Source of the DNA: a virus
DNA length: 64,000 bases
Strand: one strand, 5' to 3'
Virus record (IMG/VR): IMGVR_UViG_3300025000_000080
Coordinates: 1 to 64,000 of that record
Of this stretch, positions 22,270 to 38,889 are shown piece by piece. The position numbers were made by a program, and so were the translations under genes. Every line of letters starts with the position of its first letter. The stretch's first letter is position 1. The notes beneath the pieces were generated by a model. It was not told the origin of the DNA. It worked only from the letters and a program-made list of their open reading frames with translations, and made no database searches.

Positions 22270-25200
22270 TTACCAGGAATCGTCGTCGTCCGACGCCTTC
22301 TCCACACGGGGACGGCCCGTGGCGCCCGCGACCTTGTAGGATCGGCCCACGGCGTCGACTTCGGCCCACGGATCGGACTTCTCGGTGTTCTGCTTCCCGG
22401 CGTCAGCGTCCGATGTCGTGGTGTTGCCACCCAGCCCGGCATCCTTCAGCAGCGCAGCCTTTGCAGCGGCGTCCTTCTCAGCTGTGGCCTTATCGGTCTG
22501 GGCCTTATCGGCCTGGGCCTTCAGCACGGCATTCTCGTCCTTCAGTGCCTGCTGGGCCTTGGTGAAGTCGGTCATCTGTGCCTTGAGCGCTTCCATCTCG
22601 GCCTTCAGGGCAACGGACGGGTCGACTGCCGCGTTCTCGGTCTTCTCCTTGAGCGCGTCCGCGTTCTCGGTCTTCTCGGCCTTCGGCTTCATGGAGCCAC
22701 CGCACGAACTGCAGAACTTGGCTTCCTTGGTGTTCATGGCCTTGCAGGACGGGCACGCCATGTCAGCCTTTTCCGTGGTCTTGTCGGCTTCGGTCTTCTC
22801 GGTCTCGGTCGGCTTCGTGGTGGTCTTCTCGATCTCGCTGATGAGCAGACCGACGCCGCCGTGAACGTCCTTCAGCGCCTGGACGGTTGCCGTGGGGTCC
22901 TTCTGGTGGTTCTCGCGCACGAACTGGGCGATACCCTTGAGTACATCCTTCATGTCACTCTCCCGGATGGTCGATTCAAACTCTTTGAGGAAGCTGTCAG
23001 TCTCACTCTGTGCCGGACCACCAACGATCCAGTCCCAAACGCGCTTCCACATACTCTGCTTTGAAGTTGACACGTCACTTGACTGACTGTCAAAAATGCG
23101 AGTCAATGCTTCAGACTCGAAGTCATCGCCCGACTTGAAGACACTGAACGACTTCACACCCTGGCCTGAATTGGCACCTCGATTGACGAAGGATACTTTC
23201 CAGACCTCCATCTCTTGGAGTTCTGCGTTCTGCTTCATTTTCATGGCTGGAGGTTCACTCCCCTGGACAGGCTTTGCCGTCCCTGCGATGGACACATAGC
23301 CGTATTCACCTGCCTCAATGGACTTCCAGAGGCTGTCATCCATGATCTTGGCAGACTGCATCCATGTGCCTTCGGGTGCCGTGGTATCACCCGACTTCAC
23401 CTGCCAGTTCTCAACGACTCGCGCGTCTCGCTTGGCATAGTCGTGGTCGGCATCGAATTCCTGACTTTTCTCCATCCAGAAGGTCATGGCGTTGTAGATC
23501 GTCTCAGGGGACATCCAGTCCCCGTGAGTGTCCTTCTCGTATGGCCGATAGACCTCGTAGGAAACAATTCGATTGGGTGCGTCGATCTTCAGGATGGGGA
23601 CGAGTCGCACCGTGTTCCCATCTGCGCCCTTGTAGGTCTGTGTTCGGTTTGGAATAGGTAGTGCGTCGATCTTCGCTTCGAAGTCCGCGACCGCTTTGAG
23701 TACGGACGCCTGCGTCATCTCGGCAGGCAAATGTTTCCAGTCGGCCAGGACATCATCCAGATCGGTCTTGTTGAACTGCTTTGCCACCGGCTTGAACGAG
23801 ACGACCGCCTCCACCTGGGTTACGTTCGAGAAGGTGATTGAGCCATCTGCGGACTTGGTCCAGTCGGTCTGGTAGAAGCCATCATTGCGATAGTTGTAAA
23901 CGATAATGTATGTCTCGTAGACACCGTCCAAACTGGCCGGGCAGTAGTCATGATCCGTGGGTCCGAAGATGCCTGTAAGTCCTGCCTTCTTCACCGCATC
24001 GTACATGTCACGCCGGAATACTTCGACCGATTGTCCGGCCAGATCGATCTTCTCTGTCTGTACGGTGACGGACTCAGGAGGCTTCGGCGGCTCCACCGAA
24101 ATGAATGACGTGACCGCCTTGACTTCCTGGACGTCGCTGAACGTGATCGTGTCGCCGTTCCGTGCCCAGCCTGCACGGTAGTACATCACATCGCGGTAGT
24201 TGTAGACGATGACCTCCGTCTCCATGACCGCGTGGATGTAGCCGGGATAGTAGTGGTCGCTGTGATTATAGGTTCCCCACAACCCATCTTTGGCAGCGCT
24301 CGTAACGGCCCGCTCGAGTAGCGCCATGAAGTCCTGAATGGTTCCGCCACCCAGATCCAGTTTCGCGACCATCTCCTTGGCGGTTTCCTGTACCTGCTCA
24401 TCCACGCGCCGCTTCAGATCAGGGGCCAGAAGAGTCTTCACCAGGGTGCTATCAGGGTCGACCGTGACACCTTCCTGGAGTGCCCTTAACACGATACGGC
24501 TGAACACGATCTTCCGGGAGCGAGGCTTGGTATACTCCTCGTAATTGGCGGTGAATCGGGACAGGGCGTTCCGCAGTCGCCCCTTCGGTATGAGCGGATA
24601 CTTGAGATTGACAGGATCCCCGTAGTCCTCGAGGCTTATGGGGAACCCTTTGGGAAATCGAAGGTTGGTACTTTCGAGAATCTCGATGGCGAACCGTCCG
24701 GCTCGGGCCTGCTGTGCGGCTTTCGCCTCGTCATCGGTCATGTCGGCTGTCGGCTCATCGGCCTTCAGTGTCGGCTCGGTCTTGACCTCACCACCCGAGG
24801 CCAGCGACTCGACATCCACGATCTCAGGAACAATGGGACCACCTTCCACCGGCTTATTGGTCTTACGCGGAGGCTTAGCCTGCTTGGGCAGCGGGACGCC
24901 GATGTAGGCGGTCACGCCATCACCGAGTGGAAGCGGATGAAAGCGGGGATTGCCTGACTGGAACTTGCTCTCGGCACGGATGGTAGCGACCCAGCGGTTC
25001 CCCGTCTTGGTGATAGCCTCGTCATCTTCGATGGCGTAGAAGTTGGCAGCAAGCCACTTCTCGACGTCCTCCACCGACAGATAGGTGTCGTCGGAGAAGT
25101 CGAGCCGATGGAGTCCGCCGACAGAGTAGGTGTCCTTGATAACGATCGCAATGGCGTCTTTCATCGTTTCTGCGAGCTCCTGTGCCTGGTTGTCCCACCA

Positions 25201-25488
25201 CTTTGCATCCGATGGCCCCAGTATTCCCCAGAGTGCCGTTGCCACATCAAGCGGGACTGGGTCTGCCTTCCTTGCGTCGATCTTGCTGACACCATTGGAG
25301 TGGTGCCGGGAATGCCATGCGGAGGCTTCCTTAACCCAGTCATCAGACGGAGTCGTGTCCCCGTCGACTACTCCCTGAGCACGACGCACCGTTTCAGGCT
25401 TCAGCCCGTCGCCGCTAAAGCCCTCGCTATGCCACTTCAGACCGACTTTGAAGGCACGAATCATTCGGGCGGGAAATTTGTCTGCCAT
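22270..25488 (-). CDS. Fused prohead protease (XkdF-type) and scaffold with zinc ribbon
   Basis: The 1,072-codon gene encodes several parts. Residues 1-200 are an unassigned region. A tandem repeat lies at about 395-470 and 495-570, each containing IVYNYR and TFSNV/TFSDV. An XkdF/S78-like protease region lies at about 640-790 (VSYEVYRPYEKDTHGDWMSP, DADHDYAKRDARVVENW, YGYVSIAGTAKP). A four-Cys zinc ribbon follows (Cys912, 915, 926, 929), then a Lys/Glu/Ala coiled coil (960-1015) typical of scaffolds, and an acidic end. The protease would mature the prohead and the coiled coil would direct capsid assembly. It is unusually long for this role. Confidence 0.7.
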   Translation of the reverse strand: MADKFPARMIRAFKVGLKWHSEGFSGDGLKPETVRRAQGVVDGDTTPSDDWVKEASAWHSRHHSNGVSKIDARKADPVPLDVATALWGILGPSDAKWWDNQAQELAETMKDAIAIVIKDTYSVGGLHRLDFSDDTYLSVEDVEKWLAANFYAIEDDEAITKTGNRWVATIRAESKFQSGNPRFHPLPLGDGVTAYIGVPLPKQAKPPRKTNKPVEGGPIVPEIVDVESLASGGEVKTEPTLKADEPTADMTDDEAKAAQQARAGRFAIEILESTNLRFPKGFPISLEDYGDPVNLKYPLIPKGRLRNALSRFTANYEEYTKPRSRKIVFSRIVLRALQEGVTVDPDSTLVKTLLAPDLKRRVDEQVQETAKEMVAKLDLGGGTIQDFMALLERAVTSAAKDGLWGTYNHSDHYYPGYIHAVMETEVIVYNYRDVMYYRAGWARNGDTITFSDVQEVKAVTSFISVEPPKPPESVTVQTEKIDLAGQSVEVFRRDMYDAVKKAGLTGIFGPTDHDYCPASLDGVYETYIIVYNYRNDGFYQTDWTKSADGSITFSNVTQVEAVVSFKPVAKQFNKTDLDDVLADWKHLPAEMTQASVLKAVADFEAKIDALPIPNRTQTYKGADGNTVRLVPILKIDAPNRIVSYEVYRPYEKDTHGDWMSPETIYNAMTFWMEKSQEFDADHDYAKRDARVVENWQVKSGDTTAPEGTWMQSAKIMDDSLWKSIEAGEYGYVSIAGTAKPVQGSEPPAMKMKQNAELQEMEVWKVSFVNRGANSGQGVKSFSVFKSGDDFESEALTRIFDSQSSDVSTSKQSMWKRVWDWIVGGPAQSETDSFLKEFESTIRESDMKDVLKGIAQFVRENHQKDPTATVQALKDVHGGVGLLISEIEKTTTKPTETEKTEADKTTEKADMACPSCKAMNTKEAKFCSSCGGSMKPKAEKTENADALKEKTENAAVDPSVALKAEMEALKAQMTDFTKAQQALKDENAVLKAQADKAQTDKATAEKDAAAKAALLKDAGLGGNTTTSDADAGKQNTEKSDPWAEVDAVGRSYKVAGATGRPRVEKASDDDDSW

Positions 25489-25556: not shown

Positions 25557-26969
25557 TCAGACGATCACAGGCTGGAGTGTAGACCGACACAACCCGTGCA
25601 GTGGAGGGGGCCCTATGCTTTGGGAGAGGATATCGTTGACCTTATCCGTGTACTCTCCCCGGTCGTCCCTGTTCCCCATCCCTGACCGGGAGATCTCAGC
25701 GAGAACGGTGTCTGTCCCGTCCTTGCCACGGACGAATATCTCCTTCTTGCCGTCGTCGAGTTGTCTCTCTCTGACCCATGGATTCTCGTACTTGACGTCC
25801 ATCGGATCATCGAGGGACTCGAGCCCTTTGAGTAAATCAAGCGCGCGTCCAACATTAACAAACTTGCCGTCAGCCCATCTACACTGATCGCTGGTCCTCT
25901 CGTCCAGTATAGCTGTAAAAATTGCCGTCTCAATTCCAGCTTTACTGTAAGTGCTCAGGTGTCCATAGGCTTCAGCCCTCACCGTGTAGGCATTGGCCAC
26001 AACGCGATAGTAGTTTGGATTGCCTCCCCGGACCTCGAGCCATCTGGACAGGTCCTTACCGATCTCGTCACCCGATAGCCCCTGTTCGAAGCCCCGAGCG
26101 GTAATGGAGCGTGCGGCTTCACTCCATTGGGCTGAACGCTGTTTAAACTGGTCGGTCACGAAGTTGACGGTGGACTTTCGAAGGAAGTTCACCGATGCTT
26201 TGTCCACAGCGTCGAACGTGGCTGTGATGGGACCGTTCGAGGGGACCTTGCTCCCACCTGGCCCCCATTCATACTTCTTCGCGTCCCAGGCTCGTACAGC
26301 CTTGACCACGCGCATTCCGTGCTGCAGGAGTGGAGAGGCGAGTAACCCAGCGAAGGCGCCTCCTGCCTTGGTGAACCCATCGGCGATGGCTGTGATCTGC
26401 TTCCCGAGTTCGACTTCGCCCAGCGCTACCCAGTCAGTAGACTCCGCAATCTCCACGAGTTCAGCCACGGTGGCGTCTACCGTGCCCTTCGCCAACTTCG
26501 CCAGTTTCGCCACAAGCCGCTCGGTTTGCTCGTCCTGGGGGAAGATGTCATCCGCCTTCTGAATCGACGTGGTGAACCCCGCAGCGGCCATCATGACGTC
26601 GATATCAGCGATACCCGAGTTCAACCTTGCAAGGATGTCGGTGTAGTCGAGCGTGACCGCACGCTTGTAGATCGTCCCCTTGCCGTTACCCTCTACGGCG
26701 TAGGCCAGGGTAACAGCGGAATCGGGCGCAACGGCTTTCTCAGCCAGCAACTCTGCATCGACGTAGGATAGACCGGCCGCAAGACGCTCCACAGACACGA
26801 CGTCACCGTCTCGCTCTGTAACCAGCACCCATCCTTGCCGGCCCACCGTTCGCCCACCCAATGCTTCCCTGGCGTCCTTCAACGTGGCGACACATCGGAC
26901 AGGCGAAGCGACCAGATAATCTGCGTCAATTACCCGTGGTGCTGACTTGCTCAATCTGTGCATGCACAT
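25557..26969 (-). CDS. Head morphogenesis protein, Mu F/SPP1 gp7-like
   Basis: The start at 26969 is set by AGGAGG 6 nt upstream; longer reads upstream are not protein-like. The 470-residue product has a C-terminal Mu F-like domain (about 300-470): ILDERTSDQCRWADGKF and PPLHGLCRSTLQPV, with paired Cys/His positions. Family members assist head maturation and some have lytic-transglycosylase-like roles. It sits upstream of the protease/scaffold gene and starts the structural operon. Confidence 0.85.
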   Translation of the reverse strand: MCMHRLSKSAPRVIDADYLVASPVRCVATLKDAREALGGRTVGRQGWVLVTERDGDVVSVERLAAGLSYVDAELLAEKAVAPDSAVTLAYAVEGNGKGTIYKRAVTLDYTDILARLNSGIADIDVMMAAAGFTTSIQKADDIFPQDEQTERLVAKLAKLAKGTVDATVAELVEIAESTDWVALGEVELGKQITAIADGFTKAGGAFAGLLASPLLQHGMRVVKAVRAWDAKKYEWGPGGSKVPSNGPITATFDAVDKASVNFLRKSTVNFVTDQFKQRSAQWSEAARSITARGFEQGLSGDEIGKDLSRWLEVRGGNPNYYRVVANAYTVRAEAYGHLSTYSKAGIETAIFTAILDERTSDQCRWADGKFVNVGRALDLLKGLESLDDPMDVKYENPWVRERQLDDGKKEIFVRGKDGTDTVLAEISRSGMGNRDDRGEYTDKVNDILSQSIGPPPLHGLCRSTLQPVIV

Positions 26970-26988
26970 ATCACGCCTCCTACGACCT

Positions 26989-27017
26989 ATCGTACCGGCA
27001 GGACTTTTTTCCCGCAA
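26989..27017 (-). promoter_or_regulatory. Candidate late promoter for the structural operon
   Basis: On the minus strand TTGCGG (27012-27017), a 17-nt spacer and TACGAT (26989-26994) lie just upstream of the Mu F-like gene. The match is moderate, and a phage-specific activator may be needed. It faces away from the helicase promoter at 27032-27060. Confidence 0.4.
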
Positions 27018-27031
27018 ACCGTAGTAAGGTG

Positions 27032-27060
27032 TTGAAACTTTAAAATAGCCGTTGTATACT
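27032..27060 (+). promoter_or_regulatory. Promoter of the SF1 helicase gene
   Basis: TTGAAA (27032-27037), a 17-nt spacer and TATACT (27055-27060) precede the helicase start by about 27 nt. The spacer contains TTAAAATAG, related to the recurrent upstream box seen at other promoters of this phage. Confidence 0.65.
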
Positions 27061-27086
27061 CGTATCTGACCACTACGGAGGAGCGG

Positions 27087-28724
27087 ATGCCGAGCGATTG
27101 GACGCCGAGTAAACACCAGCGAGCGCTGTATGATTGGATTGACAACGGCATGGGGCATGCTGTTGTGAAAGCGGTCGCAGGATCAGGGAAGACCTCAAGC
27201 ATCGTCCGTGCGCTCGAGCGTATCCCGTCTCGGTGCAGCGTCCTTTTCGTCGCGTTCAACAAGGACATCGCTGACGAACTGGCGCGACGTGTCCCTGCCC
27301 ATTGTCAGGCGAGAACGCTCAATTCGTTCGGCGTCAAGGCTTGGTTCTCGTGGGCCAGGTCGTACCCGGAGGTCAACAAGCACAAGACTAGTAACCTACT
27401 CCGGTCCATTCTTTCTTACGCTGAAGGTGATGCCTACGGAGCGGAGATTGAGACCTTGGTAGCACTGGCTAAGAGTCATGGTGTCGTGCCTGCCGGCGCT
27501 TCTCACTTTCAAGGGCTCATGCCCGACTGTCCCGAGACGTGGAAGTATTTCATCGAACGGTACGGGATCGCCATCAAGGCGCAGGACCGCGACCGGGCGA
27601 TGATCCGTGTGAGCCAGGTATTGAAGGAGGGGATCAAGACATCCCGGTCGGTCATCGACTACGACGATCAGCTTTATATGCCCGTCATCGCCGGCGCAGA
27701 TTTCCCGCAGTTCGATTTCGTCTTCGGGGATGAGGTTCAAGACTGGTCGCCTGTTCAGCGAACGATGATCAAGCGTGCGCTCAAACCTACTGGTCGCTTC
27801 ATTGGAGTAGGTGACGAAAATCAGGCCATCTATGGCTTCAGGGGCGCTGCTTCAGACTCCATCGACAAGATCATTGAGGAGTTCAGAGCCACCGTTCTAC
27901 CGCTCAGTGTGACATACCGCTGTCCCCGTTCGGTTGTCGCTCTGGCTCAGAAACTTGTGCCGGAGATCGAAGCGGCTGCAAACGCAGTAGAAGGTGTTGT
28001 CGAGTCGCCATCGTCATACCGAGTGAGCGACTTCACGCCTGCTGATCTCGTGGTCTGCCGCTGCACAGCGCCGCTGGTGTCACTCGCCTATCGAATCATC
28101 GGTCAAGGTGTCCCTTGTCGCGTACTTGGCAAGGACATCGGTCAGGGACTCATCACCCTGATCGACAAACTCGATGTCAGAACCATCGACGGCCCAGATG
28201 GGCTGTACATCCGCCTTGGTAAGTGGGAGGACAAGGAATCCTTGAGTTTCGCACTGGCTGACAGACCGGGGCTTGCCCAGTCCGTTCACGACAAGGCTGA
28301 CTCCCTACGCGCCATTATGGACAGCCGTCATGACCTTGAGACGGCGGCCAACCTCAAGGATGCCATAAGGACGACGTTCGCCCCCGAGAACTCAAAGGCG
28401 AACGTTCTGACCCTGGCCACCATCCACAAGGCCAAGGGGCTCGATGCTGATAACGTTTGGCTGCTCAATCCCGACTTGCTGCCGGGCCGATGGGCGACAC
28501 AAGACTGGGAACTCCAGCAGGAGAGAAACCTCGAGTACGTCGCATACACCCGGGCAAAGCAGGCTCTACGGCTCATCAGTGACACCGGACTGTGCGGGCA
28601 GGATGGACGCCCGCTAACGGTTAAGAAGCGGCCCAGTAAGGAACCTAAGCCGCTTACGCCGTCACAGAAGGCAAGAATCGAGAACGAGATATTCGGTGCG
28701 CTCAAGGTGGGCGCCCGACGCTGA
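27087..28724 (+). CDS. Superfamily 1 (UvrD/Rep-like) DNA helicase
   Basis: The 545-residue product carries the SF1A motifs in order: Q-type start (TPSKHQRALYDWI), Walker A AGSGKT (residues 31-36), motif II FGDEVQDWSPVQ (about 213-224), motif III GDENQAIYGFRG, motif IV YRCP, motif V IHKAKGLDADNVWLL and motif VI EYVAYTRAKQAL. It should unwind DNA 3'-5' in phage replication, recombination or repair. The RBS GGAGGAG is strong. The next gene starts within 20 nt. Confidence 0.93.
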   Translation: MPSDWTPSKHQRALYDWIDNGMGHAVVKAVAGSGKTSSIVRALERIPSRCSVLFVAFNKDIADELARRVPAHCQARTLNSFGVKAWFSWARSYPEVNKHKTSNLLRSILSYAEGDAYGAEIETLVALAKSHGVVPAGASHFQGLMPDCPETWKYFIERYGIAIKAQDRDRAMIRVSQVLKEGIKTSRSVIDYDDQLYMPVIAGADFPQFDFVFGDEVQDWSPVQRTMIKRALKPTGRFIGVGDENQAIYGFRGAASDSIDKIIEEFRATVLPLSVTYRCPRSVVALAQKLVPEIEAAANAVEGVVESPSSYRVSDFTPADLVVCRCTAPLVSLAYRIIGQGVPCRVLGKDIGQGLITLIDKLDVRTIDGPDGLYIRLGKWEDKESLSFALADRPGLAQSVHDKADSLRAIMDSRHDLETAANLKDAIRTTFAPENSKANVLTLATIHKAKGLDADNVWLLNPDLLPGRWATQDWELQQERNLEYVAYTRAKQALRLISDTGLCGQDGRPLTVKKRPSKEPKPLTPSQKARIENEIFGALKVGARR

Positions 28725-28743
28725 ACATGTGGAGGAAGTTGAA

Positions 28744-29718
28744 GTGATAGCGGAAAGCCCTTACAAAATTCTGAGAATCAAAGAAGACGAGACGCGAGAC
28801 AAGGTGGATGAAGCCTGGCTCCGACTCGTCACCGATTACCACCCCGGCCGTCCAGTGGAGGACTTGGACGAATACCAGAAGGTGATGAAAGCCTATCTGG
28901 AGATCACAGATCAGACCGCCGACTACATCACCGTAGACGGCGTGTGTGACTGGGCGCCGGTTCACATTAGAAACGAGATGTGGCGTGCGGAGGACATCCG
29001 GGAGGGAAAGGATATCCAGGCAGGCTCCATCGACGTAATGAGGGAGTGGATCACAGCCCTGCCGGACTACATGCCGAATGAACGGCTCGAGAAACTCCCC
29101 GGCTTCGACGTGCGGTCCATCATCGACCGGCTGCTCATTCAGCCGGAGTTCAAGGACGCCGGACTTCCAGAAGACCCTCGGGCGTTCCGCATTCTCTGGC
29201 GGAACAGCAAGTGGGTATCCAAGGGTGCGGTGGTGTTCGGGAGCCTGAGCACGGTCAGCAAGAAGGACCGGAACCTCTGGAAGGAGGGCTACGTCCCCTT
29301 GTGGACGATGACGCTCAGCCTTCCCGCCTGGCTGCTGATGGAGGAGTGGGAGAAAGAGCGACTGGTTCATCACGAGATGGGGCACGCGGACTTCGACGTG
29401 GACGCGGCCAAGGCGAAGACTAAGGGCCACGACATGGAAGAGAACCTGGCCACCATCGCCCGGTATGGTGCCAGGGACAAGGGGCATGCCTGTGTGATCG
29501 CTCACGCCAATGCCCATCCGAGGACCATAGAACTCATCCAGGCGGCGGGATGGGCGGATGGGCAGGGACTTCTATTCAAGCCGCTCAAGCGTGACGAGCG
29601 AGGCGCCGAACGGGCGATGATGGGCAGTGCCACGATTTTGACCGGCTCGAAGTCGGTGACCCTGACCAGTAAGCAACTCGACATGGTGGACCAAGCCATC
29701 TCGGCCCGTCACCTGTAG
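28744..29718 (+). CDS. J-domain-like/phage metallopeptidase fusion protein
   Basis: The start is GTG 28744, with GGAGG 8 nt upstream. The first 50 residues resemble a J-domain: SPYKILRIKEDETRDKVDEAWLRLVTDYHPG (about 5-35), with HPG in place of the usual HPD. The C-terminal part (about 150-260) looks like the phage putative-metallopeptidase family: EKERLVHHEMGHADFD with HEMGH at 210-214, then GHDMEENLATIARYG. The HPG change would be expected to weaken DnaK stimulation. Substrate is unknown. Confidence 0.7.
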   Translation: MIAESPYKILRIKEDETRDKVDEAWLRLVTDYHPGRPVEDLDEYQKVMKAYLEITDQTADYITVDGVCDWAPVHIRNEMWRAEDIREGKDIQAGSIDVMREWITALPDYMPNERLEKLPGFDVRSIIDRLLIQPEFKDAGLPEDPRAFRILWRNSKWVSKGAVVFGSLSTVSKKDRNLWKEGYVPLWTMTLSLPAWLLMEEWEKERLVHHEMGHADFDVDAAKAKTKGHDMEENLATIARYGARDKGHACVIAHANAHPRTIELIQAAGWADGQGLLFKPLKRDERGAERAMMGSATILTGSKSVTLTSKQLDMVDQAISARHL

Positions 29719-29727
29719 CCTACCCAC

Positions 29728-29780
29728 AGCGGCATGGTTCTCTGGTCACGGCAATCTGGGCCATGCCGCTGGTTTATTTT
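29728..29780 (+). terminator. Terminator after the helicase unit
   Basis: A 10-bp stem, AGCGGCATGG (29728-29737) with CCATGCCGCT (29761-29770), is followed by GGTTTATTTT on the plus strand. The T run is imperfect. It separates the plus-strand unit from the convergent HNH gene. Confidence 0.55.
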
Positions 29781-30199
29781 CTTGCCCGGTGTTCATCCTC
29801 GTGACACTTCGCACACAGCGCCTCAAGGTTCTCCCAGGCGTCACTCCCACCTTGTGACCGATAGATCCGATGATGAGTGTGATTCGTCCACATGTTGCAG
29901 CGCTGACAGCGAGGGAAGGCGTTTTGGAAGGCTTTTGAGTGCTGTGACCATGCCTTTTTCCAGGCGAGCCCGGCGCGTTCCGATCCATCGCCCCATGACG
30001 GATCAGGTATCCAGCGACGACAGACGAAGGAACCATCCGGCTGAGTAAGAGGGTTGTCGCAGCGATGGCCCGGGACGGAAGCGACAACATAGTCCATAGG
30101 TGTCTCGCCATGAACGCGATCCCCGAACGTCACCACAAGGTCACGTTTCTCAGGTGTAATCCACCCGAGTTTACACAGCGGACACCGCCTGCCTTTCAA
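29774..30199 (-). CDS. HNH endonuclease with N-terminal zinc ribbon
   Basis: The 141-residue product (TTG start overlapping the upstream stop as TTGA) has an N-terminal CPLCKLGW and a later RCDNPLTQPDGSFVCRRW that may bind zinc. Its HNH core is at the C-terminus: FPRCQRCNMWTNHTHHRIYRSQGGSDAWENLEALCAKCHEDEH. HNH nucleases in phages work in packaging or homing. Here it sits far from the terminase, in an accessory unit, so a homing or defence role is equally likely. Confidence 0.8.
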   Translation of the reverse strand: MKGRRCPLCKLGWITPEKRDLVVTFGDRVHGETPMDYVVASVPGHRCDNPLTQPDGSFVCRRWIPDPSWGDGSERAGLAWKKAWSQHSKAFQNAFPRCQRCNMWTNHTHHRIYRSQGGSDAWENLEALCAKCHEDEHRARK

Positions 30200-30657
30200 T
30201 GGAGTATTCTGCCGGCGGCATCCGTGAGTACGACCAGACGTTCATCGGCGTTGACCCGGTTCTTCTCCACTGGGATGGTGCCCATCGACGGGTCGGCCAT
30301 TGCAACTCGTGTGACACGCCCCTTATTGCGAGGATGGACAGCGCTGTCCGTGCGCTTCCCGCCCTTGAACGTCTGGACCACCGGCTCAGGTAGCCCGAGG
30401 ACCTTGTGAGCGAGCATGGCTCGAGCGGTCTCGAATGCCTGTTCGAAGCCCTGGCCACAGTCGTACAGGTACTCGAGCATGTAGGTCAGAAGATCCGCCG
30501 TTCGATCCACGAGTTGCTTCTCGGTGTAGACCGGGGGCTTACCGGTCAACTGTCCTTCCAACTGGAACGTTTCGAGCACAGCCGCCACAAGCCGCTGCTC
30601 CCCGATCTTCTGATACACTCGTGTGACCGCGTCTTCTCTATTCGGCCGTTGTCCCAT
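30196..30657 (-). CDS. Hypothetical protein in the wHTH-regulator unit
   Basis: The 153-residue product (MGQRPNREDAVTRVYQKIGEQRLVAAVLE) is mostly helical at the N-terminus and basic in the centre (TFKGGKRTDSAVHPRNKGRVTRV). It overlaps the regulator gene upstream by 20 nt and the HNH gene downstream by 4 nt, so the three are co-transcribed. No family is recognised. Confidence 0.6.
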   Translation of the reverse strand: MGQRPNREDAVTRVYQKIGEQRLVAAVLETFQLEGQLTGKPPVYTEKQLVDRTADLLTYMLEYLYDCGQGFEQAFETARAMLAHKVLGLPEPVVQTFKGGKRTDSAVHPRNKGRVTRVAMADPSMGTIPVEKNRVNADERLVVLTDAAGRILH

Positions 30658-31090
30658 GATTCTCCTTCACTTCCGTGTAGATACGGATCAATGTTTCCTC
30701 GTAGACGAGCCTGCCATCCGATAGCCGAGCACCCCGCCTGCCGTCCGGGAGTTTGAAAATCTCATCTACTGTCACAATCCGGCTCGGGTTATTCTTCGCC
30801 GCCCATGTCGTACCCGCCTTGACCTTGCAAGCCTTCTTAACCTGCTCAATCGTGACCACATCCAACTTCACCCGCTTGGAGGCGATGGCGAAGATGATCG
30901 GCTGACGGCCTCGACTGAAGGTGGCAGCGTTCCCCACCCGCTTGACGACACCCTGCTTCTCGAGCCGCCTTACACGACGGTTCATCACCTGGCGTGAGAT
31001 GGGCGTGCTCCAGCGCTCGCACAACTGGCCAATGGTCTGCGGCCCGTGAAGTTTCAGCAGTTCTACGACTTGAGCGGATCGATCTTGCAT
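30638..31090 (-). CDS. Winged-helix DNA-binding regulator
   Basis: The 150-residue product begins with a winged-helix layout (SAQVVELLKLHGPQTIGQLCERW, RQVMNRRVRRLEKQGVVKRVG, residues about 4-55) like MarR/TrmB-type repressors. A C-terminal region (DEIFKLPDGRRGARLSDGRLVYEETL) may sense or dimerise. It is transcribed from a promoter that overlaps the opposite-strand promoter of the 31186 gene. No clear ribosome site precedes the ATG, so expression may be weak. Confidence 0.7.
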   Translation of the reverse strand: MQDRSAQVVELLKLHGPQTIGQLCERWSTPISRQVMNRRVRRLEKQGVVKRVGNAATFSRGRQPIIFAIASKRVKLDVVTIEQVKKACKVKAGTTWAAKNNPSRIVTVDEIFKLPDGRRGARLSDGRLVYEETLIRIYTEVKENHGTTAE

Positions 31091-31097
31091 GCCGCAC

Positions 31098-31139
31098 TAT
31101 AAAATAGTAGTTGAATCTTACGCCACTAATGGGTACAGT
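31098..31139 (+). promoter_or_regulatory. Plus-strand promoter, overlapping an opposing one
   Basis: TTGAAT (31111-31116), a 17-nt spacer and TACAGT (31134-31139). The 19 bases ending at the -35 (31098-31116) match the recurrent box ATTAAAATAnnnGTTGACT with a few changes. It drives the small membrane protein gene at 31186 and the genes after it. Confidence 0.65.
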
Positions 31140-31165
31140 ATGTAAGACCCCCTTTAATAAGTCAA
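31137..31165 (-). promoter_or_regulatory. Minus-strand promoter of the regulator/HNH unit
   Basis: On the minus strand TTGACT (31160-31165), a 17-nt spacer and CATACT (31137-31142). Its -10 shares three bases with the plus-strand -10 at 31134-31139, so the two polymerases cannot bind at once. Confidence 0.65.
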
Positions 31166-31185
31166 CAACTACTGCTGAGGCGGAC

Positions 31186-31347
31186 ATGCGGAGCGAGTAC
31201 AGGCATTTGTTGCGGCCGGTGCAGATCGTGTTTGTGACGGACGAGACGCCGTCACCGTTCGTGAGCACATGGAAACTGGTGCTGATGGTCGGTCTGATTG
31301 CGATGACCGGCGTGATGTGCGGTCTGGGCCTGGTGTCGGTGCTGTGA
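31186..31347 (+). CDS. Small single-span membrane protein
   Basis: The 53-residue product starts at ATG 31186 with GAGGCGG upstream. It has a short soluble start (MRSEYRHLLRPVQIVFVTDE) and one hydrophobic segment, LVLMVGLIAMTGVMCGLGLV, at about residues 32-51. The C-terminus ends in the membrane. It leads the accessory plus-strand operon. Function is unknown; a toxin-like or membrane-sensing role is possible. Confidence 0.6.
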   Translation: MRSEYRHLLRPVQIVFVTDETPSPFVSTWKLVLMVGLIAMTGVMCGLGLVSVL

Positions 31348-31360
31348 AGGGAAACGAGTG

Positions 31361-31603
31361 ATGGAGAAGCGTGAGATCCGCTGGCGACAGGCAAACCATC
31401 TCCCCTTGGCGATCACTCGGCTTATGCCGGGTGTCATCAACTACAAGGGTGTCCACCTCCCGCCCTCAACCGTGACACTCCCGGCTGACCTTCTCGAGCC
31501 GACACAGGAGGGGGACACCCTCCACTTCGATATCGAGACCTATCGTCGGGCGGTATCGACGCCAGAAGACACGGCTACTCATCTGCGGGAAGAGTCGGTT
31601 TGA
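31361..31603 (+). CDS. Hypothetical small protein
   Basis: The 80-residue product (MEKREIRWRQANHLPLAIT) has two predicted halves joined at MPGVINYKGVHLPPSTVTLP and ends with an acidic helix. AAGGG precedes the GTG/ATG pair. It lies 14 nt after the membrane protein gene in the same operon. No family is recognised. Confidence 0.55.
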   Translation: MEKREIRWRQANHLPLAITRLMPGVINYKGVHLPPSTVTLPADLLEPTQEGDTLHFDIETYRRAVSTPEDTATHLREESV

Positions 31604-31620
31604 TGGTATAGGAGAAAGCG

Positions 31621-31818
31621 ATGAAGCACCAAGGCTTAAAATGCCGCACTTGTCGGGGGCGTGGCACGGTAAAAACCCGGCGACTCTGCACGATCGTCAC
31701 CGAGCGGGATTGCCCTGACTGCGAGGGCACAGGACGGGCGGACGCTGATGAGGATGCGGCGTGGCTTCCTCCAGAGTTTAGAGGCACAGAAGAGGAACTA
31801 AGGGAGACTGAGACGTGA
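31621..31818 (+). CDS. DnaJ-type zinc-finger protein
   Basis: The 65-residue product consists of two CxxCxGxG repeats, CRTCRGRG (residues 8-15) and CPDCEGTG (31-38), the pattern of half a DnaJ central zinc domain. An acidic tail follows. A DnaJ zinc domain normally has four such repeats; here there are two. A separate J-domain-like protein is encoded 2.9 kb upstream on the same strand. It may bind unfolded protein or RNA (inference). Confidence 0.75.
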   Translation: MKHQGLKCRTCRGRGTVKTRRLCTIVTERDCPDCEGTGRADADEDAAWLPPEFRGTEEELRETET

Positions 31819-32336
31819 ACCACATGAAGGATCTGACCAGTGATGACTTGACGGCACTCGCCACGTTCGACCCGGAGACACCGGAAGGGCGAACGGAGTT
31901 CAACCGCCTGGCGCATGAGATGATGCGCAGGGATGGGGATGTACCGATAGAGGAGGCGATCAAGCATGTCAACGCAGGACTCATGGATGAGTCAGAGGCG
32001 CTTGACATGGTCCGCCGAGGCGCCCCTGAGTACGACGGTACTGCCACCCGATATGTCTATGAGGTAAGGCACTACCGCCGCCCGATCGCGGACCTCTGCC
32101 GTCCCGGAGCCTTCGACCCGGAACCGATCGTCAAAGCCGTAAGAGAATGGACCGGGCGTCACCTGACGTTGGCAGTCGAATACGACGGTTCTGTGTGGTC
32201 TGCAATGTTTCACACTGGGCTAACAGGCGATCCGTGTGTGTGCGAGGAAAGCCCGTTTATGGCCCACGCGGTGATAGTCGCCGCCGTTGTGGCGTGCGTT
32301 GTGTACGGACGAGATTATGCCGCCGTAACGCCCTGA
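31815..32336 (+). CDS. Hypothetical protein
   Basis: The GTG start at 31815 overlaps the upstream stop as GTGA. The 173-residue product is helical and acidic at the N-terminus (LTSDDLTALATFDPETPEGRTEF), with a central EVRHYRRPIADLCRPGAFDPEPIVKAVREW. A hydrophobic C-terminal stretch (AHAVIVAAVVACVVYG, about 147-162) could span a membrane or pack internally. No known family. Confidence 0.6.
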   Translation: MNHMKDLTSDDLTALATFDPETPEGRTEFNRLAHEMMRRDGDVPIEEAIKHVNAGLMDESEALDMVRRGAPEYDGTATRYVYEVRHYRRPIADLCRPGAFDPEPIVKAVREWTGRHLTLAVEYDGSVWSAMFHTGLTGDPCVCEESPFMAHAVIVAAVVACVVYGRDYAAVTP

Positions 32337-32402
32337 TAGCCTTCTTCCTCCCTCCTACTCTTATTCCCTTAAAAATAATTTGAAGCATTGTCATTTCTAC
32401 TA

Positions 32403-32431
32403 TTGACAGTAATCAAAGCCTGCCTTATATT
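32403..32431 (+). promoter_or_regulatory. Promoter of the LPD29-like gene
   Basis: TTGACA (32403-32408), a 17-nt spacer and TATATT (32426-32431), 44 nt before the start codon. The upstream flank is AT-rich (CTTAAAAATAATTTG). It is the best internal promoter of this accessory block. Confidence 0.75.
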
Positions 32432-32475
32432 AGGTACATAGACGCTGGCAAAAACAAATCACGGGAGAGTAGGAC

Positions 32476-32919
32476 ATGGCGACCATCATCAACATGAGCA
32501 CCAGGCGACAGATGGAGACAATCTACGAGACACCCGCTGAGACGGCCAAGAAAATCCGGTCAGCGCTGAAGGTCGCATTCCCTGGTATCAAGTTCAGCGT
32601 CCGGTCGCGGTCATACTCCATGGGCTCGACTGTTGATGTCGCTTGGACGGATGGCCCGCGGACAAAGGACGTGGAGGCGGTAGCAGGGCAATTCGAGTCC
32701 ACATCGTTCGACGGGATGGACGACAGTACGCACCACCACGGCTACATCCTTGACGGCGTGCGATATAGCGGCGCTGGTTACGTCTCTTGCCAGCGCGAGT
32801 ATTCGTCCGAATGGGCGGCGCTCCTGCTGGCTTATGCCAATGATAACGGCTCGTTTGAGTCGTACCAGGACGAGTGGGAGCGGATGGCCTGGGCCGAACA
32901 GGACCTGACGCTCGAGTAG
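32476..32919 (+). CDS. LPD29-domain-like protein
   Basis: The 147-residue product matches the LPD29 type of domain, known from polyvalent proteins of phages and conjugative elements: TAKKIRSALKVAFPGIKFSVRSRSYS (about 23-48), STVDVAWTDGP (51-61) and FESTSFDGMDDSTHHHG (73-89). Such domains are thought to be delivered with DNA and to counter host responses. Here it is a stand-alone protein with its own promoter. Confidence 0.75.
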   Translation: MATIINMSTRRQMETIYETPAETAKKIRSALKVAFPGIKFSVRSRSYSMGSTVDVAWTDGPRTKDVEAVAGQFESTSFDGMDDSTHHHGYILDGVRYSGAGYVSCQREYSSEWAALLLAYANDNGSFESYQDEWERMAWAEQDLTLE

Positions 32920-32932
32920 TTCCACACCCCGA

Positions 32933-32952
32933 GCCCGGCGGGCAATCCGGGC
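32933..32952 (+). other. RBS-proximal hairpin before the 32965 gene
   Basis: GCCCGG (32933-32938) pairs with CCGGGC (32947-32952) across an 8-nt loop. It lies directly upstream of the GGGAGAG ribosome site. The same layout recurs in the 56-60 kb block. Confidence 0.5.
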
Positions 32953-32964
32953 AGGGAGAGAGAG

Positions 32965-33546
32965 ATGATGACATGCTCTTGTGGACAGTCCGACGCGCAT
33001 GAGATCGCCCGGTCTCACACCTATGATGGCATCGCCGTCTGCCTGTGGTCAGATGGCATGGTGTCCGGTCTCATGGGCTTCCGATTGCGCGGTGTCCCTT
33101 CACGGCGTCCCAGGACCCCGGAAGCACGCGAGAATGCACTGACCGCCGGACATCTCCTTCTGGGTGATGCGGGCATCTACGATGCCGACGAACTGCCGGA
33201 CCTGTACCGGGCTGCTGAAACCGCCGCACGGGAGGACGCACTTCCGGGCACGATGCGTGATGAGTATGCACGGATTCAGAAGCCTGCAACGCCCACGCTG
33301 ATATGGGTGGTCCTGGCCACGGATCGCGACGGCAAGCCGACAGAGCGGTATGCCAAACTGCCGCGACTGTCGAAATGGCCTGGCTTGGTCATCTGGGATT
33401 TCTGTAACGGTCCCGGGAGTGCCCGGGGTCGGTATCACGTCATGCGTGAGGAGCATCCAGCGGGTTACGCGGACAAGGTCTGTTATAGGACCGGGTGTGC
33501 GTTTGCTCGGTTGACTGATCTGTGGAAGCACTTAGAGGAATCATGA
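32965..33546 (+). CDS. Hypothetical protein with N-terminal Cys-His motif
   Basis: The 193-residue product starts MMTCSCGQSDAHEIARSH; this Cys/His cluster could bind zinc. A conserved-looking C-terminal region (WPGLVIWDFCNGPGSARGRYHVM) has no known family. The next start overlaps its stop as ATGA. Tandem ATGs lie at 32965 and 32968. Confidence 0.6.
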   Translation: MMTCSCGQSDAHEIARSHTYDGIAVCLWSDGMVSGLMGFRLRGVPSRRPRTPEARENALTAGHLLLGDAGIYDADELPDLYRAAETAAREDALPGTMRDEYARIQKPATPTLIWVVLATDRDGKPTERYAKLPRLSKWPGLVIWDFCNGPGSARGRYHVMREEHPAGYADKVCYRTGCAFARLTDLWKHLEES

Positions 33547-34121
33547 GACGCAAACGCCGAAATCCTGAAGCAGAACGTGCGGAAGCGCTCCGCGAGACTG
33601 AGCGGCGGGTGAAAGAGCGGGAAGCCCTCGATCGGGAGTGGGCACCCTTCGACGCTCTGGCTGCGCGTATCTGCCTCGAGCAGACATTGCCCCTTATCGG
33701 CGTGGACGTGCCCGCATGGGGGCAGTGCGCGGAGGAGATGACGCTTGAGGGGGCAGAGCGGCGACACGAGACGATCGCCATCCTGGCGCGGTCGGGCGTC
33801 TCCGATGTGTGCCTTCGGGACCTTGTGAGCGGGTCGGACCTGTACGCCTCCGATCGGCTCACCGCGATATGGTGGGCGCGGCTCCGGATACCTCCGGTGA
33901 CGGACATCAGCAATGTGGCGGACAAGGATGCCTTCGTTCGGACACTGCTTATCCGTGACCTCGATGAGATGGTGGCGGCAGGCACGATCCACTCGGATGC
34001 TCGGGCTATACTCCGGGGCACCGAGGACATCTTTCAGCACAACCGGCAGCGAGCACGGCGGGAACTGCAGGAGTTCAACGCCCGCCTTCAGTCGATGGTG
34101 GGGAAGGATGACCATGCTTGA
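33543..34121 (+). CDS. Hypothetical helical protein
   Basis: The 192-residue product begins with a basic, charged helix (MRRKRRNPEAERAEALRETERRVKEREAL) likely to be a coiled coil. The rest is helical (GAERRHETIAILARSGVSDVCL, DEMVAAGTIHSDARAIL). It could bind DNA or RNA through its N-terminus. The ATGA overlap and AGAGGAATC site support this start. Confidence 0.6.
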   Translation: MRRKRRNPEAERAEALRETERRVKEREALDREWAPFDALAARICLEQTLPLIGVDVPAWGQCAEEMTLEGAERRHETIAILARSGVSDVCLRDLVSGSDLYASDRLTAIWWARLRIPPVTDISNVADKDAFVRTLLIRDLDEMVAAGTIHSDARAILRGTEDIFQHNRQRARRELQEFNARLQSMVGKDDHA

Positions 34122-34512
34122 GCACATCACCGCTTCTGTCTCCGCTCTCGAGGAGTTATGGTCACCGTTTGATCATGGGCTGTGGTGTGAGGCTATGCGC
34201 CGCGAGGATGTGGCGTTCTGCATCGCAAAGAAGTGGAGTTTGTCCCCGTCCGAAGGGGAGAATATCCCGTTCGATACTCGCTACTACCTCGCACATGCGG
34301 CACGGATTGCGTGGTTCGTCGAGAACGGATACCAAGGCAGCGTCGAGATAGATGTGCCGATCAAACGGTCACCGACATGGTATCCAGTGCGAGACGGAAA
34401 CCACCGGCTCGCTGCCGCCATAATCCGTGGCGACAAGACCATCCCTGCCGTGTGGTGGGGAGGTCCGCAAGACGTACTCGAGAAGATCAGGATGCCGCCG
34501 TCATGCCCCTAA
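34114..34512 (+). CDS. ParB/Srx-fold nuclease-like protein
   Basis: The 132-residue product has the ParB/sulfiredoxin-fold core motif VRDGNHRLAAAIIRGDKTIPAVWWGG near residues 93-118, preceded by VEIDVPIK. The DGNHR pattern is typical of small phage ParB-like proteins. Roles range from partition to DNA nicking. It overlaps the preceding gene by 8 nt and the next by 10 nt. A partition role is not shown. Confidence 0.65.
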   Translation: MLEHITASVSALEELWSPFDHGLWCEAMRREDVAFCIAKKWSLSPSEGENIPFDTRYYLAHAARIAWFVENGYQGSVEIDVPIKRSPTWYPVRDGNHRLAAAIIRGDKTIPAVWWGGPQDVLEKIRMPPSCP

Positions 34513-34724
34513 TCAAGCCGCGCGGTCGCAACGGTAGACGCCCGCCAGGTCATCACACGCCCATCAAGGAAGCCGTCTCGCGTTCGGTAGGTGTATCCTT
34601 CATGACCACGGTGGAGCGCCGGGCATGGATTGACGCTGAAGTAAAGCGGCGCGGCGTTAAGTCTCTTGGAGATGTGCTGAACGAGTTGATTCAGCAGGCG
34701 ATGTCAGCGAAGACTGCCCAGTGA
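34503..34724 (+). CDS. Small basic protein, possible ribbon-helix-helix
   Basis: The 73-residue product has a basic, proline-rich start (MPLIKPRGRNGRRPPGHHTP). A C-terminal part follows (GVSFMTTVERRAWIDAEVKRRGVKSLGDVLNELIQQAM) in a strand-helix-helix order like RHH repressors. It overlaps the ParB-like gene, so they may act together. Its last 21 nt overlap the convergent portal gene. Confidence 0.55.
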   Translation: MPLIKPRGRNGRRPPGHHTPIKEAVSRSVGVSFMTTVERRAWIDAEVKRRGVKSLGDVLNELIQQAMSAKTAQ

Positions 34725-36878
34725 AGGCATGGCGCGCCCACCCAGCATGACCCATTCCTTCAACACGTTCGCATCCACTTCGATCTTCTCACCATCGCCC
34801 CGCTCGAGCCTGCCCAGTGAATCCCTGAGTATGTGCTCATCGATCCCCATCAAGGTCGCCTGCTTCGTCAGACTGTTCATCTGCTCCAGCATATCGGAAC
34901 GAAGATCAGACAGGAACCCCAGCACATCCTCACGAGAGACGCCGCCAGACGCCCGCTTCTGAGCGAGGAAGTCGATAGCCTTACCAACCCCTTCAGGAGA
35001 CGTACCCATCGCCCCAGGCGCCCCTGTGACGCCCTTCATCTGTGCCAGGTATACTGGCAGCGGCAACTTCGACCATTCGCTATCGTATGGCGGCAGGGAG
35101 TGATTCAGAGCATCGGCGGCGATGAGCCGGGCCTCGTCCAGCGTGAGGAACCCGGCGCGCACTGCCACGTCTGCGAGCTCGATCAGTTCTCTCGAGTCCC
35201 GGTTGATGGGCGCGTTGCTTCGATAGTCCCAGTAGCGGGCACCGAAGATCGGGAGCAGGCGAATGTTGATGACGTCGTCGATATCCTTCCTCTCCGGCTC
35301 ATAGGTGTGCTTCTCGACGTGATCGGCCATGACTGTGGCCGTCGCTCGATTCATGCCCATGAACTTACCCACGGACATGGGCGGGTTGCCGAAGGCGCTG
35401 TCGATCTTATCCCCTTCGTCCTTCCGGTATCGGACATAGAGCGCATCGTCGCGCTGGTACTGGGTGAGGGGGATGACGTGGATCTTTGGGATTGGCGCGT
35501 CACCGACAACGGGCGAGCCTCTACCAACACCAGACGGCGCGGCCTCGAGCGTCAGGATACCGCTGGTGCGGTTGTGGCCCTTCAACTTCGTCTTCAGGTG
35601 CTTCTCGATCTTCTCGACAGCTCCTGCTGCAAACCTCCCACCCTCTACCAGAATCATCAGGTCCGGGATCGCGTCGTTACGCAGTGTCATCAGGTTGACC
35701 TGCTCGGCCTCGATCTCTCCCAGAGCTCCCACGACAAGACCCTGCCAGCGAGGGACGCCGTAAACGTCATGCTCAGTATTGATCAGCGTGAAATGGATCA
35801 TCTCAAGGGCGGGCCCGGTCTCGGTCCCCATCTTGATCGCCTTGTCCAGTTCAGCCTTCGTCTTGTACGTCTGGCCGGTGCGATTGCCGATCAGCCGTGG
35901 GTCGCCTATCTCCTTGAAGAAGATCATGCCGCCGCCGTACACATTCGGCACGGCCGGTGTGTCTCCTTCACCGATGCCCTGGACGTATCGCCGGAACGAC
36001 CGGATTACCTTCACCTTGTCGTAAGAAACCGGGCTGATCTTCACGCGGTCGCTGACCTCGACGTTCATGTCCTCGGGAGACAACTTCACGGCTCGAGTCG
36101 TGCGAGCGGGAACCCACCACAGAGAAAGCGGCTCACCCCATGGATTACGATTGATGGCCAGGAAGCCGTTGCCGTAGGTCTCCAGGTCCCAGCGAAGGCG
36201 CCGGCGAATCCGGATCAGGGTCTCCTTGGGATTCGGATTGTCGAAGAACAGCCGCAACCGTGCCTGCTCGGCCGCCATCTCGAGTTTGAGCCGCTTCTTC
36301 CTGGCGTCTACCTCAGAGTCGTCGATCTCCAACTGCACTTCGGGCGGGTCTCCCCCATCCGTCCAGTGCTTCACCCGTGCCTCGTGAAGTCGCTCCATGT
36401 AGATGACGGCGCGGATCTCGTCGTCCACCTTTTCAGATGCCAGATCCACCCGTGGCATGAGCTGGTATCCGTGCGCGTCGATACCGTGATTGTACGCCTC
36501 GATGTTCTGACGGATGGATGGGGAGTTGCGAACGATGAAGCCCAGCCAGGCAAAACTGATCGCTGGCGGGATGACGCCCACACCGGAGAAGAGCGTGTTG
36601 AGCTTGTTCTCATCCACCCGAATGATGTCGGGCTCGATACGGCCCAGGTCCTGCGGCCCGCCGTCGTCACTTTTCTGGATGCTTGACTTCTGGACGCTGG
36701 CTCGAGCCGGTGCATGCCGGTCGATCCACGCGTCCCCAGTGGCGTTTCCCGCATCTTTCGCGGTGATCTCCCGATCAGCATTGTCGATCGCGTCTTCCCA
36801 TCGCTCTTGCGGTTGGTCCTCTGCCCCACCCAGACTGCACACCTTGATTTCCCAGCCGCTATATCCCTGCTCTTCCAT
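34704..36878 (-). CDS. Portal protein
   Basis: The 724-residue product starts at ATG 36878, overlapping the terminase stop as TAATG. Portal-type segments include NSPSIRQNIEAYNHGIDAHGY (about 117-137), LRWDLETYGNGFLAINRN (about 228-245) and WQGLVVGALGEIEAEQVNLMTLRNDAIPDLMIL (about 385-420). FGNPPMSVGKFMGMNRATATVMADH (about 520-545) fits the clip/stem end. An extra N-terminal acidic region of about 80 residues is present. It follows TerL as usual. Confidence 0.88.
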   Translation of the reverse strand: MEEQGYSGWEIKVCSLGGAEDQPQERWEDAIDNADREITAKDAGNATGDAWIDRHAPARASVQKSSIQKSDDGGPQDLGRIEPDIIRVDENKLNTLFSGVGVIPPAISFAWLGFIVRNSPSIRQNIEAYNHGIDAHGYQLMPRVDLASEKVDDEIRAVIYMERLHEARVKHWTDGGDPPEVQLEIDDSEVDARKKRLKLEMAAEQARLRLFFDNPNPKETLIRIRRRLRWDLETYGNGFLAINRNPWGEPLSLWWVPARTTRAVKLSPEDMNVEVSDRVKISPVSYDKVKVIRSFRRYVQGIGEGDTPAVPNVYGGGMIFFKEIGDPRLIGNRTGQTYKTKAELDKAIKMGTETGPALEMIHFTLINTEHDVYGVPRWQGLVVGALGEIEAEQVNLMTLRNDAIPDLMILVEGGRFAAGAVEKIEKHLKTKLKGHNRTSGILTLEAAPSGVGRGSPVVGDAPIPKIHVIPLTQYQRDDALYVRYRKDEGDKIDSAFGNPPMSVGKFMGMNRATATVMADHVEKHTYEPERKDIDDVINIRLLPIFGARYWDYRSNAPINRDSRELIELADVAVRAGFLTLDEARLIAADALNHSLPPYDSEWSKLPLPVYLAQMKGVTGAPGAMGTSPEGVGKAIDFLAQKRASGGVSREDVLGFLSDLRSDMLEQMNSLTKQATLMGIDEHILRDSLGRLERGDGEKIEVDANVLKEWVMLGGRAMPSLGSLR

Positions 36879-38638: not shown

Positions 38639-38889
38639 TCCGCTTTCTGCGCCGGGGCATCCGCGATCGTGCATGTGGTAAGCATCGCCCCCATGCCTAC
38701 CATCAGTGAATAACTCAGAACCGACCCCCGCAAGACATTGATAGCCAGGTACAGTCCGGCAATCTTGGCATACCGCTTGATCGCCCGACTGTGACGGTGC
38801 CGGTGGATCTCGAATGCAACATCACTCGCTGTCGTCGGATCCCCGGGGTCCTGATACGCGCCCACCACGCTTGCGAGTTGATTTCTCAC
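38614..38889 (-). CDS. Small membrane protein, possible holin
   Basis: The 91-residue product starts at GTG 38889 with AGGAG 7 nt upstream. The N-terminus is polar. The basic HRHRHSRAIKRYAK segment is followed by a hydrophobic C-terminal half (IAGLYLAINVL, then VLSYSLMVGMGAMLTTC, about residues 43-73). It overlaps the upstream gene by 68 nt and the terminase by about 25 nt. Overlapping small membrane genes are typical of lysis genes. Confidence 0.55.
   Translation of the reverse strand: MRNQLASVVGAYQDPGDPTTASDVAFEIHRHRHSRAIKRYAKIAGLYLAINVLRGSVLSYSLMVGMGAMLTTCTIADAPAQKAEWKHVGKR

Follow-up and report, generated by a model that had tools for sequence, protein, structure and literature searches.

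The phage J-domain proteins described so far are almost all of one kind, 48 of 49 unique sequences being class C proteins in which the J-domain is the sole known domain (PMC13254874). DnaJ docks on DnaK through the basic residues R22, K26, R27, K48, and K51 plus H33, P34, and D35 (PMC8215388). Changes of the latter motif to HPN or QPD abolish stimulation, HPE being apparently the sole change tolerated, and proteins with such altered motifs are classified as type IV (PMC13254874). Because a J-analogue that was designed de novo and lacks HPD can stimulate Hsc70 (PMC13254874), loss of HPD is not an absolute proof of lost Hsp70 stimulation, and whether HPD-less J-domains are accidental or selected has been posed as an open question (PMC13254874). 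Among metallopeptidases, the name minigluzincin has been applied to both Wss1 and Spartan (PMC4559962; for Wss1 also PMC5557861), SPRTN possesses zinc-coordinating histidines (PMC5127644), and Wss1 acts together with the segregase Cdc48 (PMC4559962). Mycobacteriophages encode SprT-like proteins resembling SPRTN (PMC12363180), and host proteins have been suggested as substrates of SprT-like metallopeptidases from phages (PMC7824862).

In the locus described here a J-like domain and a metallopeptidase are found in one protein. The window, a stretch of 64,000 nucleotides (positions 1 to 64,000 of IMG/VR record IMGVR_UViG_3300025000_000080), has in its ORF list a plus-strand frame, 28744-29718, encoding a 324-aa protein, in which ORF call and Pfam together delimit a J-like domain, a linker, a metallopeptidase domain of family PF18894, and a C-terminal tail. 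The first-pass annotation of a J-like module joined to a metallopeptidase at this place is confirmed. We give about an even chance to the reading that the product is a minigluzincin/SprT-like protease with a J-like docking module devoid of canonical DnaK stimulation, acting perhaps on protein-DNA complexes.

A ribosome-binding-site-like GGAGG, read from the sequence at 28731-28735 (plus strand), lies 8 nt before the GTG at 28744, and for this reason the start at 28744 is preferred over a longer in-frame one, GTG 28696, which would give 340 aa. The antisense ORF 28702-29517 is unsupported, and its codon-position profile differs. The same ORF is carried by a near-identical twin contig, IMGVR_UViG_3300025154_000052 (137,577 bases), which shows 11 differences from the window in the 8,475 bases compared and has a sheath and a terminase that match those of the window at 100%. 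Window and twin contig are the same virus, a contractile-tailed phage as judged by sheath, tape-measure, and baseplate matches; a search for other relatives by sheath and terminase found the twin contig alone. The twin protein differs solely at residues 197-199, and HPG (in place of the J-domain HPD) and HEMGH are present in both assemblies. Since the twin contig has the same residues, it is unlikely that HPG is a chance or sequencing error of a single assembly, although this agreement is not independent proof, because the two assemblies may stem from one population. The difference at residues 197-199 comes from 8 contiguous bases (29333-29340; L197P, L198S, and M199R in the twin). In the twin they read as the reverse complement of window 29372-29379, bases that lie inside the HEM codons; a template switch or an artefact of assembly could produce this. 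Three further contiguous differences lie at 34410-34412.

The zincin-like metallopeptidase domain covers approximately residues 119-243 (29098-29472, plus strand; Pfam, alignment, and models). Residues 126-243 match PF18894 (PhageMetallopep) with an E value of 1.8e-11 and 44.7 bits, where the cut-off is 23.7, and the domain alone scores 46.5 bits. In HEMGH (residues 210-214; 29371-29385, plus strand) the family alignment predicts H210 and H214 as zinc ligands and E211 as the catalytic residue, and GHDMEE (residues 228-233; 29425-29442, plus strand) contains H229, which aligns with the histidine of the SPRTN GHxxE. An alignment of 34 members shows no variation at H210, E211, H214, H229, D230, R240, and G242, and HD-x-E is found in 86 of 88 distinct motif cores (two of them this virus's own, with two ORFs lacking the motif set aside). 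The C-terminal phage metallopeptidase that the first-pass annotation read from HEMGH and GHDMEE is thus upheld, with PF18894 above its cut-off and the motif residues invariant in the family; its metal site is probably present rather than absent, the motif being intact and the predicted fold that of a zincin.

Comparison with SPRTN bears on the third ligand. The window motif HEMGHA-x13-GHDME and the SPRTN motif HEMIHA-x13-GHGPE are identical at 9 of 23 positions without a gap (E 0.013 in this single comparison), and the spacing from histidine to histidine is the same in both. Such spacing is uncommon within PF18894: 5 of the 88 cores have 14 residues between the histidines, against 25 residues in 59. 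We take the GHG histidine of SPRTN to be its third zinc-coordinating histidine. By this likeness H229 may be the third zinc ligand, E232 being the other candidate.

Membership in the SprT family is weak at the level of sequence profiles. The window has no match to the SprT-like family PF10263 at E<=1, a threshold passed by 3 of the 34 members (best 0.095); hhalign against E. coli SprT gave a probability of only 7.7%; the family-alignment profile matched no solved structure; and E. coli SprT used as bait brought up zinc fingers and a ribosomal protein, but no protease. PADLOC gave no defence-system match for the protein. In PHROG 513 and in several phage records, such as NC_020850.1 and NC_018279.1, PF18894 proteins that carry HExxH...GHDxEE bear the label "transposase", which looks wrong. 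In the archaeal control genome of Sulfolobus acidocaldarius PF18894 is matched above its cut-off; therefore the family is not confined to bacterial phages.

In the full-length model, pLDDT is 83-92 from residue 121 to 230 except for one block of 73, and falls to 65 over residues 231-240, where GHDMEE ends. Modelled alone (alignment A10), the protease domain reaches a pLDDT of 79.0 and a pTM of 0.75, with the GHDMEE block at about 69. Its nearest fold in structure alignment, where values of Z within 1 count as tied and a Z below 8 may mean just a common arrangement, is selecase (Z 8.9, rmsd 3.4, 101 residues aligned), along with abylysin (Z 7.4, rmsd 3.0, 89 aligned), SPRTN 6mdx (Z 7.2, rmsd 3.4, 96 aligned, 25% identity), and HtpX (Z 6.7, rmsd 3.2, 91 aligned). 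Selecase and abylysin are among the first six rows of this alignment, but Foldseek gives an E value of 0.046 at best, and neither the full-length nor the protease-domain model has a PDB match at E<=0.001. The top hit in a viral library is a protein bearing the name putative phage metallopeptidase (E 2.8e-6). The models support a zincin fold of the minigluzincin/SprT type, not one single family.

Upstream of the protease gene, a UvrD/PcrA-type helicase gene (27087-28724, plus strand; phrog_1967, E 2.6e-89) ends 19 nt before it. A promoter-like TTGAAA-17-TATACT lies upstream of the helicase (27032-27060, plus strand), one such site being found where 1.3 are expected by chance. Downstream, a candidate terminator consists of a 14-bp hairpin followed by a T-rich stretch (29727-29771, plus strand); it is only modestly better than shuffles (z -1.49, 18 of 200 as good), and the terminator scan, which does not admit a loop of this length, leaves it out. 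We infer that the helicase and protease genes form one transcription unit. At five viral loci with relatives of the helicase, the stretches read contain no HExxH neighbour of at least 90 aa, so the pairing looks local. Between the protease and portal genes, 29774-34512 holds an HNH endonuclease, a MarR-like regulator, an LPD29-domain protein, and small orphan ORFs.

The pair is on the plus strand inside head genes of the minus strand (MuF-like, 25557-27158; portal, 34704-36887; terminase, 36878-38674). The position of the protease gene between the MuF-like and portal genes would suit a role in virion maturation or packaging, with head or packaging proteins as the protease substrates and a structural protein as the binding partner of the J-like part, and a role in maturation has been proposed for phage metallopeptidases (PMC7824862). 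In five of nine phage records, furthermore, the annotated terminase is the second (L003, L005, L009, L010) or third (L011) gene after an unfused family gene; the other four do not have that arrangement, two of them ending soon after the gene. This neighbourhood of PF18894 gene and terminase is a steady one, with a DUF2280-annotated gene between the two in two of the five records. Single unfused loci lie near helicase and methylase genes (L055) or ParB-like genes (L200). The virus, however, already has an S78-type prohead protease (22270-25488), and the fused gene runs opposite in strand to the surrounding head genes and sits behind a helicase. We therefore consider the maturation role unlikely, albeit with some claim to attention, and prefer a targeted protease acting perhaps on protein-DNA complexes. 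The prohead protease gene (22270-25488, minus strand) encodes a 1072-aa protein with Peptidase_S78_2 and a zinc-ribbon-like stretch, and apparently contains two tandem copies of a segment of ~75 aa with 'VYNYR' in its middle.

The N-terminal J-like domain comprises residues 1-60 (28744-28923, plus strand; Pfam, model, and profile), with helices at 6-9, 18-32, and 41-55. Residues 6-57 match PF00226 with an E value of 4.8e-5 and 23.8 bits in the whole protein, below the cut-off of 27.8; the match in the 73-kb record, 27.2 bits (E 3.1e-7), is just below it, and that of residues 1-64 scanned alone, 28.4 bits, is above it. At E<=1, neither of the two records has any other PF00226 match. A J profile built from 12 other viral J-domains, with the window left out, matches it alone (E about 8e-7) among 13,101 stop-to-stop ORFs of at least 50 aa from 179 sources, the matches being the window and two twin-contig copies. 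The closest solved sequence is the J-domain of human DNAJA1 (E 0.01).

The full-length AlphaFold2 model has a mean pLDDT of 65.9 and rests on a 40-row alignment (A5) in which the N-terminal pieces of 26 metallopeptidase rows are misplaced in the J columns; a re-trimmed alignment (A6) misplaced the J rows instead, and A5 was therefore used. By ten-residue blocks, pLDDT over residues 1-60 is 87, 94, 87, 73, 85, and 68, whereas residues 58-98, 260-307, and 310-324 are below 50. The linker, residues 61-118 (28924-29097, plus strand; Pfam and model), is thus of low confidence over 58-98, and residues 61-124 have no Pfam match; nor has the C-terminal tail, residues 244-324 (29473-29715, plus strand; Pfam and model), which is mostly of low confidence. 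The predicted J part aligns with the J-domain of CbpA (3ucs; Z 8.8, rmsd 2.8, 59 residues aligned) and with DnaJ in its DnaK complex (5nro; Z 8.2, rmsd 3.4, 58 aligned). Foldseek with the full model places two Euglena complex I subunits in the top two rows (E 0.0099 and 0.016), and J-domains come next. Residues ~1-60 are predicted to adopt a J fold. The J-domain with HPG for HPD in the first-pass annotation is accordingly borne out by the PF00226 match and a predicted fold with Z up to 8.8, and the fold prediction it had called for returned a J fold rather than none.

Degenerate J-domains can pair with functional ones, as Pam16 does with Pam18 (PMC13254874), and the J-like part might by analogy be a decoy which pairs with host J-domain proteins and either directs the protease to a protein of the DnaJ type or blocks such a protein. 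Tim14-Tim16 (2guz) is indeed matched by the model, chain A with a Z of 8.4 and chain B in Foldseek with an E value of 0.23 and a probability of 1.00. Many J-domains tie on Z, however, so that Pam16 (Tim16) is not singled out among them, and we judge a decoy quite unlikely; in the preferred reading the J-like part would be a docking surface for the protease.

At the positions of the five E. coli DnaJ basic residues the protein has D, L, R, Q, and M, so that one of the five is kept (R27), and the motif at residues 33-35 (28840-28848, plus strand; translation and alignment) is HPG, corresponding to D35G. In the 12 other viral J-domains, which were found with patterns favouring canonical sequences, with copies excluded, and are not a random sample, four of the five basic residues are kept in 11 and three in one, and HPD is present in all 12. 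The net charge of helix II is -2, as compared to +1 to +4 in these 12 and +3 in E. coli DnaJ. No Hsp70 was matched at E<=0.01 in either virus record, the records being possibly incomplete. A clear J-domain with a non-conservative HPD change places the module in type IV, while HPG and one docking basic of five set it apart from functional Hsp70 co-chaperones. From its sequence, loss of the DnaK contact fits better than recruitment of DnaK clients: the domain has kept few of the residues needed to dock on DnaK and to stimulate its ATPase.

The first-pass annotation had left two outcomes open, cleavage of host chaperone clients that the J-domain brings in and loss of the DnaK contact; the changed docking residues favour the second. 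Recruitment of host DnaK or of a divergent host Hsp70, passing clients to the protease, has in its favour the predicted J fold, the retention of H33, P34, and R27, the existence of phage J-proteins that act on DnaK (Rki; PMC13254874), and the tolerance of HscC-type Hsp70s for HPE (PMC13254874). But HPG differs from HPE, and delivery of DnaK clients is unlikely because D35 and four of the five docking basics are changed, helix II is acidic, and no Hsp70 is matched; we hold any such recruitment to be very improbable, and prefer docking that bypasses DnaK. Least probable of all is that the J-domain is a decaying passenger and that the protease alone matters, or that neither does, since despite the lost docking residues and the restriction of the fusion to one virus the frame is open in both assemblies, the J fold is still predicted, and G+C by codon position in the J part (0.63/0.30/0.67) has the pattern of a coding gene.

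The fusion of a J-domain to PF18894 was seen in one virus only, in its two assemblies. No second J-fused gene was found among 179 metallopeptidase-profile ORFs with 88 distinct cores from 179 sources, which include many copies of the same contigs. Searches of phages gave 67 records at E<=10, with 0 covering 80% of the protein; in the best 60 of the 67, 58 rows lie within residues 97-269, and the other two, ssRNA-phage rows at E 9 over residues 20-111, were taken as chance. Plasmids gave 10 records at E<=1, and in all of them the match spans less than 80% of the protein. Among viral contigs, the protein alone as query found the twin contig only, and three alignment scans, each taking in up to 600 candidate stretches and 80 loci and so missing some relatives, showed no other fusion among the matches listed. 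One scan of genomes gave 6 loci, none a J fusion. In three phyla, PF18894 is present at E<=1e-6 in 8 of 398 genomes, 6 of 298 genomes, and 3 of 396 genomes, respectively; 6 stretches from these were read, one of which (L214) showed no motif match. The literature searched yielded no description of a J-domain fused to a PF18894 metallopeptidase. J-domain plus PF18894 is a new domain architecture made from known parts, not a new kind of system.

In the model we prefer, a degenerate, HPD-less type IV J-domain fused to the N-terminus of a PF18894 zinc metallopeptidase would serve as a docking surface which directs the protease to a partner or substrate while leaving DnaK unstimulated. The protease would be active; its predicted metal-site residues are those invariant in the family. 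Because the gene follows a UvrD-type helicase and its product resembles SPRTN, protein-DNA complexes are possible substrates, either at a blocked replication fork or in the form of a host DNA-bound protein. Against this model stand the weak sequence-based SprT membership and a third-ligand region at only ~65-69 pLDDT, the lack of helicase pairing at the five relative loci, a promoter and a terminator near chance, and the unfused gene shortly before the terminase in five of nine phage records. A bolder version, which we think doubtful, is that the phage has recreated the principle of Wss1/SPRTN out of bacterial components, namely a SprT-like protease, a re-purposed J-domain as guide, and a co-expressed helicase, and that these clear or destroy DNA-bound proteins at the replication fork, or cleave a host chaperone-network protein or a DNA-bound defence protein. 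A protease-fused phage J-domain that no longer has its DnaK contacts but retains the predicted J fold offers a compact test case for the question of accident or selection in HPD-less J-domains, and the fusion also gives a clue to the function of PF18894, a family of phage proteins labelled "transposase".

Compared with known systems, the protein is closest in its catalytic part to the PF18894 (PHROG 513) proteins of phages and prophages, with which it shares HExxH...GHDxEE, RYG, and the same domain. Those proteins, in contrast, are mostly about 150-220 aa, have no J-domain among those examined, and are encoded near the terminase in five of nine phage records rather than behind a helicase. Like the type IV J proteins Pam16 and DNAJB13, the protein has a recognisable J fold with HPD replaced non-conservatively, and canonical Hsp70 stimulation is not expected (PMC13254874). 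Unlike them, it additionally loses four of the five docking basics and carries a metallopeptidase, a fusion described for none of them in the part of the source available (PMC13254874). SPRTN, Wss1, and the minigluzincins selecase and abylysin resemble it in predicted zincin fold (Z about 7-9), and SPRTN also in HEM-x-H and GHxxE at the same spacing, whereas the sequence-profile link is weak and the phage protein has a J-like module and no known DNA-binding region. The J-like module apparently stands in place of the targeting motifs of SPRTN and Wss1. Finally, in the jumbo-phage MoxR/vWA pair the vWA cochaperone likewise carries a metallopeptidase domain, but both the cochaperone and the ATPase are different ones, and the peptidase is N-terminal there, whereas it is C-terminal to the J-like part here (PMC7824862).
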